Part shown: one piece after another, positions 18,159 through 22,452 of the stretch
How positions within the stretch are numbered: the first letter of the stretch is position 1
Layout of the letters: the number at the start of each line of letters is the position of its first letter
Source: Acidobacteriota bacterium
Lineage (GTDB): Bacteria; Acidobacteriota; Terriglobia; Versatilivoradales; Versatilivoraceae
NCBI GenBank assembly: GCA_009841055.1
Contig: VXMN01000206.1
Coordinates: 1 to 41,902, forward strand
Reading direction: 5' to 3'
Length of the DNA: 41,902 nucleotides
The notes under the pieces: model-generated
What the model saw: only the letters and a program-made list of their open reading frames with translations
The model's database searches: none
Told to the model about the DNA's origin: nothing
Program-made: the position numbers and the translations under genes

Positions 18159-18184
18159 TTGCGCAGGTGGAAGAGTTTACGCCC

Positions 18185-19264
18185 ATGAACGTGCAGGAGA
18201 GCCTCAGTCGGGCCGAGGAAGAACGGCTGGGTCCGGGGGTTTATGCCCTCCTGGCCGAGCGGGCTTCCCTCGAGCAATTGCAGCAGACGGCGGACCGTAT
18301 CCGGCGGCGGTTGCATCCGGACGGCGTCGTCACCTACGTGGTGGACCGCAACATCAACTACAGCAACATCTGCTCTGCCGTCTGCACCTTTTGCGCCTTT
18401 TATCGACCGCCGGGTTCCAGCGAAGGATACGTGCTGAGCCACCAGGAGATTTTTGAGAAAGTCGAGGAGACCCTGGAGCTTGGCGGCAGCGGTATTCTCA
18501 TGCAGGGCGGGCTCCATCCGGATCTTCCGCTGGAGTGGTACGAGCGGCTTCTGAGCGAGTTGAAGCGGCGGTACCGGATCCACCTCCACTGCTTCTCTCC
18601 GCCGGAGATCCATGCCTTCACCCGGATCTTCGACATGGGCACCCGGGAAGTGCTTCTCCGGCTGCAAGCCGCGGGACTGGACTCGATTCCGGGCGGCGGG
18701 GCCGAGATCCTGGTGGATGAGGTCAGGAAAAAGAACACCAACAAGTGCAACACGGCCGAGTGGCTGGAGGTGATGGAGGTCGCCCACGGTCTGGGGCTTC
18801 CGAGCACGGCCACCATGATGTTCGGAATGGGGGAAACCCTGGAGCACCGCATCGAGCACCTGGAGCGCATCTACGAACTGCAGCGGCGGACGGGGGGCTT
18901 TGTGGCCTTTATCCCGTGGACGCTGCAACCGGATAACACCAAGATCAGTCGCAAGGTCCCCGATCGGGAATCGAGCGAGGAGTATCTGCGCTGGTTGGCG
19001 CTGGCCAGAATCGCTTTGCCCAACGTCCCCAATATCCAGGTGTCCTGGTTGACCCAGGGCGTTGAAGTGGGAAGGCAGGGGCTTCACCACGGGGCCAACG
19101 ACATGGGCAGCATCATGATCGAGGAAAACGTGATCACCCCGGCCGGCGCTCATCACAGGGCCACGGAAGACATTTTGCGCGAGGCCATCCTGGCCGAGGG
19201 GTTCCAGCCTGTAAAGAGAAAGGCGGACTACGTGCGCCTGGAGGAAACCGTTGAGACTCTATGA
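18185..19264 (+). CDS. mqnC: Cyclic dehypoxanthinylfutalosine synthase (radical SAM)
   Basis: Radical SAM enzyme of the futalosine pathway to menaquinone. The cluster motif is Cys63-X3-Cys67-X2-Cys70 in [51 protein letters not shown] and FIPWTLQP are close to MqnC consensus and separate it from MqnE and CofH/CofG. ATG 18185 has GGAAGAG about 9 bp upstream and gives 359 residues; GTG 18167 is an alternative six codons earlier. The 3' end overlaps ttcA by 14 bp. Other mqn genes are not in the window. Its presence implies menaquinone made without the classical Men route. Confidence 0.92.
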
Positions 19265-20132
19265 CACGCTTCCTGCGCAGAGGACGGTGGACACGGCGCC
19301 CCAGTCGCCTGCTTCCGCGCCCTCCAGCGGGGATCTGCCTCGGCTGAGACGGCGGCTTCTGAGAAAGGTGGGCCAGGCGATCGCCGATTTTTCCATGATC
19401 TCGGAGGGCGACCGGGTCATGGTCTGCCTGAGCGGAGGCAAGGACAGCCACGCCCTGTTGACGCTGCTGAGAGACTTGCGCAAGCGGGCCCCGGTCTCCT
19501 TTTCAATGGTGGCGGTCAATCTGGACCAGAGGCAGCCGGGGTTTCCCGCCGAGGTGCTGCCCGAGTATCTGCAACGCTTGGGGCAGGAGTACCGCATTCT
19601 GGCCAAAGACACCTATTCCATCGTTCAGTCCCACATTCCGGAGGGCGGCACCACCTGTTCGCTCTGTTCGCGCCTGCGCCGGGGCATCCTCTACAATGCG
19701 GCCGTCGAGATGGAATGCAACAAGATCGCCCTGGGTCACCACGCCGACGACATGGTGGAGACTCTGCTTCTGAACCTGTTTTACGGGGGGGTATTGAAGT
19801 CCATGCCGCCCGTTTTGAGAAGCGACGATGGACGCAACACCGTCATCAGGCCGCTGGCCTATTGTCGCGAGGTCGATATCGCCAGTTTCGCCTCTCTCAT
19901 GGGCTATCCCATCATTCCCTGTGACCTCTGCGGCTCTCAGCCCGACCTCAAGCGCCAGGAGGTCAAGGAGCTGATCGCCCGGCTACAGGCGGAGAATCCG
20001 GGAGTCGGAGACTCCATGCTGGCCGCTCTCAAGCACGTGATCCCCTCGCACCTGATGGATGCCGGGCTGTTTGATTTCCAACGCCTGGCCGAGGCTTCCG
20101 GTTCGGTGGAAGTGGAGTTGGAGGCAGTGTAG
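19251..20132 (+). CDS. ttcA: tRNA 2-thiocytidine(32) synthetase TtcA
   Basis: ATP-dependent, iron-sulfur-dependent thiolation of C32 in tRNA. The PP-loop is SGGKDS at 61-66. Cluster-binding cysteines are Cys136 and Cys139 in [12 protein letters not shown] and Cys224 in PCDLCGSQ, matching E. coli Ttc[16 protein letters not shown] is the second ATPase block. TTG start with GGAGG 6 bp upstream; it overlaps mqnC by 14 bp, suggesting translational coupling. The N-terminal 30 residues are poorly conserved. A rhodanese gene follows 77 bp downstream and could supply persulfide sulfur (inference from position only). Confidence 0.93.
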
Positions 20133-20209
20133 CGGCAAAATCGGCGGAGACGTCATCAGGGTCGCAGCGACCCGGTGAGAGATAGGGGTTAAGGTCGAGG
20201 AGTAGGCGA

Positions 20210-20581
20210 ATGCAGCACTCAGAGGCATTTTTGCAGATCGTCAACGATGCCAAGTCCCGGATTCGAGAGGTTTCGGTGGCTGTGGTGCAGGAGAAGCTGC
20301 AAAGAGGGCAATCCCTTCACTTCATCGACATTCGCGAAGATCACGAGTGGGCTCGGGGGCGCGCCGAGGGCGCCGTCCACCTGGGGAAGGGAATCATCGA
20401 AAGGGATATCCAGGCGCTGGCGCCCGACCCTGACGGCGAGATCGTTCTCTATTGCGGCGGGGGGTACCGGTCGGCGCTGTCCGCCGAGGCCTTGCAGCGC
20501 ATGGGTTACCGAAACGTGTTCTCCATGGCGGGAGGTTACAAGGAGTGGGTGGCGTCGGGAAACCCGGTCACCGGAGACTAG
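20210..20581 (+). CDS. Single-domain rhodanese-like sulfurtransferase
   Basis: A 123-residue cytosolic protein with one rhodanese domain: FIDIREDHEWARGRAEGAVHL, then active-site loop YCGGGYRS with the catalytic Cys82, then SMAGGYKEW. It can carry a persulfide on Cys82 and pass sulfur to acceptors. It lies between ttcA, which needs sulfur, and the putative selenocysteine peroxiredoxin. GAGGAG precedes the ATG. No signal peptide. A partner cannot be identified from sequence. Confidence 0.92.
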   Translation: MQHSEAFLQIVNDAKSRIREVSVAVVQEKLQRGQSLHFIDIREDHEWARGRAEGAVHLGKGIIERDIQALAPDPDGEIVLYCGGGYRSALSAEALQRMGYRNVFSMAGGYKEWVASGNPVTGD

Positions 20582-20725
20582 CCTGCAATTCCCGCCGCAT
20601 GGCTGCAAGCAGCCGAGTCCCGATGCATGACGATGGTTTTGAAGAGAGTCTGGTTGAGCCTCAAGCCCGATCGGGTCTTGATGGATAGTCCCAAAGCCGT
20701 TGACGTTGAATAAGGAGAGACTCCA

Positions 20726-21250
20726 ATGTTGATGAAGATCTCCATGGTGCTGGTGTTCGTGTTGGCCCTTGCCTGGGGCCAGTCCCTGGCTGCCGACCTG
20801 AAGCCCGGGGACGTGGCGCCCGATTTCTCGCTTCCGGGGTCGGACGGGAAGACCTACAGCCTGAAGCAGTTCAAGGGCAAGCAGGTGGTGGTGCTGGCCT
20901 GGTTTCCCAAGGCCTTCACAGGGGGGTGAACGGCCGAGTGCCGGTCGTTCCGTGAGAATGGCCAAGCCTTGCGATCCTTGAACGTTGCCTACTTCACTGC
21001 AAGCTGCGACAGCGCTGACGAAAACCGCCGGTTTGCCGAATCTCTCAAGGCGGACTATCCCATACTGAGCGATCCCGGCAAAGAGACGGCCCGGGCCTAC
21101 GGCGTCGTCCACGAGAACCGAAACCTGCCGGAACGATGGACCTTCTACATCGGAAAGGACGGGAAGATTCTCTACGTGGATCGCCAGGTCAGGGCGTCCA
21201 CGGCCGCCGAGGACGCGGTCGCCAGGCTCAAGGAGTTGAATGTCCGGTAG
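20726..21250 (+). CDS. Exported peroxiredoxin with in-frame TGA (putative selenocysteine) at the catalytic position
   Basis: Thioredoxin-fold peroxiredoxin of 174 residues if the TGA at 20927-20929 is decoded. ATG has AAGGAGA 8 bp upstream; residues 1-23 are a signal peptide (cleavage after SLAA). The AhpC/TSA core begins with LKPGDVAPDFSLPGSDGKTY. The frame reads FPKAFTGG, TGA, TAECRSF: the TGA is codon 68, where homologues have the peroxidatic Cys, and Cys72 is at the resolving position. Downstream sequence (NVAYFTASCDSADENRRFAE, PILSDPGKETARAYGV) is intact, in the same frame and clearly peroxiredoxin, ending at a normal TAG. One nonsense mutation landing exactly on the catalytic codon is unlikely, so selenocysteine is the best reading. 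If TGA is a stop, only an inactive 67-residue fragment results. The SelA/B/C/D machinery must be encoded elsewhere. Confidence 0.85.
20928..20950 (+). promoter_or_regulatory. RNA hairpin at the in-frame TGA (SECIS candidate)
   Basis: The mRNA can form a 9-bp stem beginning inside the UGA codon: 20928-20936 pairs with 20942-20950 (one G-U pair), with loop AGUGC at 20937-20941. A hairpin directly 3' of UGA with a G early in the loop is expected of a bacterial SECIS element. The loop is only about 7 nt from UGA, closer than in the known E. coli fdhF element, so the assignment is tentative. Alternative foldings reaching to about 20963 exist. Confidence 0.4.
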
Positions 21251-21255
21251 GGCCC

Positions 21256-22452
21256 ATGCGGTTCTCCAACCTGGCCGACCGTTTGGCGGCAAAACGCAAT
21301 CGCCTCTATACGGAGCATGAGAAGGCCGCCGCGTCCGGACGAACCATCCTCGATCTGATTTCCACCAACCCGGCCGAACAGGGTTGGGTCTTTCCCCAGG
21401 AACGGCTGCAGGCCATCCTGGCGGACGCAGCTCCCCGGGCGCGAGTCTATCGTCCCGACCCCCTGGGACTGCCATCCGCCCGGGAGGCCATTGCCGACTT
21501 CTACCGGACGGCCGGCATCCCCGCCTCGGCCGACCAGGTCCTCATCACGCCCGGGACCAGCCTTTCCTATTTCTACTGCTTCAAGCTGCTGGCCAGTCCG
21601 GGAGAAGAGATCCTCTGCCCCCGTCCGTCCTACCCTCTTTTCGAGTCCATCGCCGAATTGGCGGGACTCCGGTTGAGGTATTACCGGCTGCAGGAATCGC
21701 GGGGATGGGAGATCGATCTCGACCACCTGGAGTCTCAGATCAGCACCCGAACCCGTGCGCTGGTGCTGATCTCACCCCACAATCCCACTGGAATGGTCGC
21801 GGGCGGACAGTCCCTGGAAGAGCTGGCGGCCGTGGCTTGCAGGCACGAATTGCCGATCCTCGCCGACGAAGTCTTCAGCGAGTTTCTCTACGACCTGGAA
21901 GCCCTGCCGCGCCCAGCGGCCACGCCGGCGCCGCTGGTTTTCACCCTCAATGGATTTTCCAAGATGGCGGCTCTGCCCGGACTGAAGCTGGGGTGGATAG
22001 TGCTGACCGGGGGTCACGCCCGGGTTCGAAGGTCCCTGGAAGTGATGGAGCTCATCTCGGATACCTTTCTGCCGGTCAACGACCTGGCCCAGCACATGGT
22101 CAGCGGCATCTTCGAGGACCGGGAGGCCTTTGCATCCGCCCTTGGGCCGTGGCTTCAGCGCTGCCGCCAAATCGCCACGACCCGACTCTCCCAATGTCCG
22201 GGAGTGCGCTTCACCCCGCCGCGGGGCGGATTCCATCTCACGTTGAAGGTGGGTGGGGCGGAGGTCGACGAGGAAGCCCTCTGTATCCATCTTCTGAAGG
22301 AGTCGGGCGTCCTGGTGCATCCCGGCTATTTCTACGACATGCCTCCGGCCCACTTGGTCCTGACCTTCGCCCTCCGGCACGAGTTGCTGGATCGGTCCCT
22401 GAAGGCGCTCTGCGAGGGGATCCGGGAATGGGAACAGCGGAGGGATTCCTGA
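21256..22452 (+). CDS. PLP-dependent class I/II aminotransferase
   Basis: Fold-type I aminotransferase of 398 residues. Hallmarks: PLGLPSAREAIADFY near 69-83, ITPGTSLSYFY near 97-107, ISPHNPTG at 172-179, LADEVFSEF with Asp204, and the PLP-binding Lys236 in NGFSKMAALPGLKLGW. This places it near the aspartate/alanine aminotransferases; substrate not assignable. ATG 21256 gives a normal N-terminus, with GTAGGG just upstream; the frame is open further back into the peroxiredoxin gene. It begins 5 bp after that gene ends, so the two are probably co-transcribed. Confidence 0.9.
   Translation: MRFSNLADRLAAKRNRLYTEHEKAAASGRTILDLISTNPAEQGWVFPQERLQAILADAAPRARVYRPDPLGLPSAREAIADFYRTAGIPASADQVLITPGTSLSYFYCFKLLASPGEEILCPRPSYPLFESIAELAGLRLRYYRLQESRGWEIDLDHLESQISTRTRALVLISPHNPTGMVAGGQSLEELAAVACRHELPILADEVFSEFLYDLEALPRPAATPAPLVFTLNGFSKMAALPGLKLGWIVLTGGHARVRRSLEVMELISDTFLPVNDLAQHMVSGIFEDREAFASALGPWLQRCRQIATTRLSQCPGVRFTPPRGGFHLTLKVGGAEVDEEALCIHLLKESGVLVHPGYFYDMPPAHLVLTFALRHELLDRSLKALCEGIREWEQRRDS

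Follow-up and report, generated by a model that had tools for sequence, protein, structure and literature searches.

Predicted selenocysteine at the peroxidatic position of a putatively exported peroxiredoxin from Acidobacteriota

Does an in-frame TGA in an acidobacterial peroxiredoxin gene mark a broken gene, or is it read as selenocysteine (Sec)? The question arises in the window analysed here, a stretch of 41,902 nucleotides (VXMN01000206.1, positions 1 to 41,902, forward strand) from the Acidobacteriota bacterium assembly GCA_009841055.1. The original prediction described a single peroxiredoxin frame with a ribosome binding site and a normal stop, broken only by TGA at the peroxidatic position. 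All of these elements were recovered: the frame runs from ATG at 20726 to TAG at 21248-21250 over 174 codons, and is interrupted only at 20927-20929, in the context PKAFTGG-U-TAEC. The features of the locus, all on the forward strand, are as follows.

20712..20717, +: AAGGAG ribosome binding site, read directly, 8 nt upstream of the ATG
20726..21250, +: Sec peroxiredoxin gene, predicted exported; 174 codons plus TAG, with TGA read as Sec
20726..20794, +: signal-peptide-like N-terminus MLMKISMVLVFVLALAWGQSLAA, from a hydrophobicity scan; hydrophobic core, with small residues before the likely cut
20906..20941, +: active-site motif P61-K-A-F-T65-G-G-U68-T-A-E-C72; P61, T65, position 68 and C72 invariant in 81 sequences
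20927-20929, +: in-frame TGA, predicted selenocysteine codon 68, the sole internal stop of the frame
20939..20941, +: Cys72, second redox residue, +4 from Sec; invariant in 81/81
20944..20962, +: SECIS hairpin; seven stem pairs around a CGUGA loop (20951-20955)
20947-20949 and 20956-20958, +: codons 75 and 78, a coupled residue pair in Sec forms
21134..21136, +: Arg137, distal active-site arginine; invariant in 81 sequences

The read-through frame contains the AhpC-TSA/Redoxin domain of peroxiredoxins, and the Pfam AhpC-TSA match extends across the TGA (4.9e-33, 114.2 bits; cut-off 26). Conservation in the same frame beyond the TGA, as originally claimed, is borne out by codons 85-172, where synonymous:nonsynonymous differences from the four nearest relatives are 12:4, 20:4, 15:8 and 15:8. 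As these differences are mainly synonymous, the part downstream of the TGA appears to be translated and under protein selection.

A scan of public genome contigs yielded 80 relatives at 54-94% identity, including 30 from Planctomycetota, 29 from Verrucomicrobiota and 17 from Acidobacteriota. The query carried Cys at position 68, so TGA forms were not favoured by the search. Nevertheless, codon 68 is TGA in 56 homologues and a Cys codon in the other 24 (TGC in 20, TGT in four), with TAA, TAG or any other residue in none. The four nearest relatives carry TGA at exactly this codon; together with the 56 of 80 homologues, they uphold the earlier argument that an isolated error is improbable. 'Candidatus Versatilivorator vitaminiformans' is among the nearest relatives, which places the host close to that acidobacterial lineage. 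Between 9 and 12 Sec-Cys switches were counted on the tree; phylogenetically independent contrasts gave only one or two well-supported pairs, too few for a test. The gene lies in the order ORF (18167), TtcA-like PP-loop protein (19251), rhodanese (20210), peroxiredoxin (20726) and aminotransferase (21256), spanning 18167-22452 of the window. Near acidobacterial relatives (L027-L031) share this order, which breaks up at greater distances; conserved neighbours were dropped as a clue to the reductant, since the order is not kept across phyla.

The genome that contains the window (4.32 Mb, 374 contigs, 93.8% complete) encodes a full Sec pathway, all four components that the original prediction had called for being present. 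Matches above curated cut-offs were found for selA (contig C352, 535 bits), selB (C64, 337.6 bits) and selD (C91, 338.9 bits), and ARAGORN places a tRNA-Sec with anticodon UCA on C94, which scores 69.4 bits against Rfam's 47. A second Rfam match, on C218 and barely above the gathering score, is a tRNA-Ser. The selD gene has one in-frame TGA of its own (CAG-U-ASK; positions 1531-1533 of L021, on C91), so that SelD is itself a predicted selenoprotein. Across 50 genomes searched, selA exceeded its cut-off in 24 of the 26 with a TGA form and in 12 of the 24 with a Cys form (p=0.0013). The two TGA-form genomes that gave no selA match above cut-off, those of L027 and L035, are probably incomplete metagenome-assembled genomes. 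In the genome of L028, selA (G002:C56:5613-6978) is split in two, and the larger match contains a TGA; the split is perhaps an assembly frameshift.

Downstream of the TGA lies a hairpin with a G in its small apical loop, a common feature of bacterial SECIS elements (PMC1088965). In the window sequence, its stem extends to eight pairs (20943-20963). The loop G is the 23rd nucleotide after the UGA, a distance consistent with bacterial SECIS elements. Among 46 distinct Sec-form sequences, the stem is paired in 96.0% of cells, with 29 cells changed on both sides in compensatory fashion, and the Sec-form covariation score of 0.288 (0.144 in shuffles) was equalled in 0 of 500 shuffles. Sliding the stem by 1-3 columns reduced pairing in Sec forms to just 34-65%, and the same stem in Cys forms is 57.8% paired, with no excess over shuffles. 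RNAalifold, unprompted, recovered the inner six of the seven SECIS pairs. The loop also appears to constrain codon choice: Arg76 is encoded by CGU in 55 of 56 Sec-form arginines compared with 3 of 22 Cys-form arginines (p=4e-14), and hairpin and CGU are kept together in 48 of 52 distinct Sec sequences against a maximum of five in 2000 synonymous shuffles, related sequences being taken as separate in these hairpin and CGU counts. An Rfam scan of the window gave no match at gathering thresholds. For the window sequence alone, with the UGA included, an alternative fold reaches -16.7 kcal/mol, compared with -14.4 kcal/mol for the SECIS fold without the UGA, such that the alternative hairpin is favoured by about 2 kcal/mol. 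From its covariation and its restriction to Sec forms, the hairpin is identified as a bacterial SECIS element. Of 52 distinct Sec sequences, 49 have Leu-Ser or Phe-Asn at residues 75 and 78; in Cys forms the two positions are uncoupled. This pattern is attributable to SECIS base pairing.

An in-frame stop is the usual mark of a broken gene, and an assembly fragmented into 374 contigs might be expected to contain errors or a pseudogene with a nonsense change at codon 68. This explanation is refuted by the homologue codons, since 56 other assemblies carry TGA, and never TAA or TAG, at the same codon, as well as by purifying selection downstream and by the maintained SECIS hairpin; its probability is close to nil. 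Genome-wide reassignment of UGA to Cys or Trp would account for a UGA where relatives carry Cys. However, TGA serves as a normal stop, ending 14 of the 24 longest non-overlapping ORFs of the window, the other cysteines of the peroxiredoxin are encoded by TGC, and the genome has the complete Sec pathway, which together make reassignment scarcely credible. Local recoding to Sec is left as the reading to which the sel genes, the tRNA-Sec, the TGA/Cys-only homologues and the SECIS all point, in agreement with the original prediction. The gene is thus, with very strong support, a predicted selenoprotein, and Sec would be inserted at codon 68 in vivo.

The AF2 model of the protein has a mean pLDDT of 91.6 (about 98 in the domain), with low confidence at the signal-peptide-like N-terminus. 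Its nearest structures in the PDB are BcpB (5epf), Bcp1 (3drn), Bcp4 (3hjp) and AhpE, and it has the Pxxx(T/S)xxC/U motif and distal Arg of peroxiredoxins. Cys94 was dropped as a candidate third catalytic residue, being Cys in just 49 of 81 sequences. A hydrophobicity scan found a signal-type N-terminal segment in 79 of the 80 testable rows, whether Sec or Cys forms, which suggests that the protein is exported. The original prediction had regarded an exported version as unusual; a signal-type segment is instead the rule across Acidobacteriota, Planctomycetota and Verrucomicrobiota. The same genome also encodes a canonical Cys PrxQ that has no signal peptide (CTQEAC; contig C116, L108 1465-1917, complement) and a Tpx-like thiol peroxidase (L109 1435-1953, complement).

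Exported AhpC-TSA domains are often ResA/TlpA-like, and a second Cys lies invariantly four residues after Sec; the protein might on these grounds be a thiol-disulfide oxidoreductase and not a peroxidase. Several observations render this very unlikely: the motif is TxxU and not UxxC; none of the peroxidase residues (P61, T65, position 68 and R137) varies; structurally, the protein comes closest to BCP, AhpE and PrxQ; and the match to the ResA model PRK03147 reaches 40 bits, well below its cut-off of 170. The best overall explanation, held with high confidence, is an exported peroxiredoxin of BCP/PrxQ-AhpE type with Sec as peroxidatic residue, and peroxidase activity would be expected by analogy. 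The role of Cys72 is a separate matter, with no bearing on the selenoprotein reading. The residue is invariant (81/81); its original designation as resolving is tentative, since it lies at +4 and the resolving Cys of PrxQ is at +5. Cys72 may instead be structural, in which case the enzyme would act as a 1-Sec peroxidase with an external thiol as its direct reductant, as in AhpE. AhpE is cytosolic and a 1-Cys enzyme. Its place among the nearest structures and the differing +4 position on the helix favour such a mechanism, against which stands the invariance of Cys72 in both Sec and Cys forms from several phyla. A purely structural Cys72 is consequently a real but lesser possibility.

For the exported Sec peroxidase, the following mechanism is proposed. 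SelB, carrying Sec-tRNA(UCA), would recognise the downstream hairpin by its CGUGA loop, and Sec would be inserted at the UGA in place of termination. The protein would then be exported and its predicted signal peptide removed. By family resemblance, Sec68, positioned by Arg137 and the P-xxx-T-xx-U loop, would attack H2O2 or organic hydroperoxides and be converted into selenenic acid. Cys72, one helical turn away, would most likely form an internal selenenylsulfide with Sec68, which a periplasmic thioredoxin-like or Dsb-like reductant may open.

Knowledge of Sec peroxiredoxins with a TxxU motif goes back to 2001-2005. In the Sargasso Sea set they ranked second in abundance among selenoproteins (PMC1088965), and Sec peroxiredoxin is still a listed selenoprotein family (PMC9312934, PMC13188914). 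The window protein shares with this family (COG1225/Bcp, PF00578) the TxxU Sec position, a bacterial SECIS and Cys homologues. Complete Sec-insertion gene sets have been reported for some Planctomycetes (PMC4807772). PrxQ/BCP proteins resemble it in fold, Pxxx(T/S)xxC motif, distal Arg and a second Cys on the helix past the peroxidatic residue. It differs from them in its signal-peptide-like N-terminus, GG in place of PG, Sec, and a second Cys at +4 (UTAEC, 81/81). In the BCP consensus PKxxTPGCTxEAC (PMC8945050), the resolving Cys is at +5, and the genome's own PrxQ conforms to this pattern. Correspondingly, the NCBIfam PrxQ equivalogs remain below cut-off (NF006960, 75.3 of 140 bits; NF053650, 68.1 of 260 bits), and the protein, which does not have the +5 Cys, is most suitably regarded as a sister form. 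PrxU of Eubacterium acidaminophilum (NF040737; 41.1 of 270 bits) and Prx-SUH (NF045827; 23 bits against 298) are also Sec peroxiredoxins, of different subfamilies. AhpE of Mycobacterium tuberculosis shares the fold (TM 0.75-0.84) and the AFTG before the peroxidatic residue, but has no Sec.

No curated NCBIfam model reaches its cut-off for the window protein or covers its subfamily, and the text of PMC1088965, PMC9312934 and PMC13188914, sequence sets aside, makes no mention of an exported UxxxC subfamily or of its occurrence in Acidobacteriota, Planctomycetota and Verrucomicrobiota. Literature searches on exported Sec peroxiredoxins and on this lineage likewise found nothing specific. The window enzyme therefore belongs to an already known Sec peroxiredoxin class, within which it perhaps represents an unnamed subfamily. 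It is tentatively suggested that this subfamily, with a UxxxC and not a UxxxxC pair, could be a main envelope peroxidase of much of these three phyla, with a selenenylsulfide that is unusually tight, formed within a single helical turn, and with F75-N78 or L75-S78 set by SECIS pairing.

Because gene callers tend to end such genes at the TGA, this predicted antioxidant enzyme, frequent across three environmental phyla, has probably been annotated wrongly, as a truncated peroxiredoxin. Coupling of residues 75 and 78 that is driven by the SECIS could mislead coevolution analyses of the protein. The 56 Sec and 24 Cys forms provide a useful natural series for the study of Sec-Cys exchange, and may also inform how a SECIS constrains codon and amino-acid choice.
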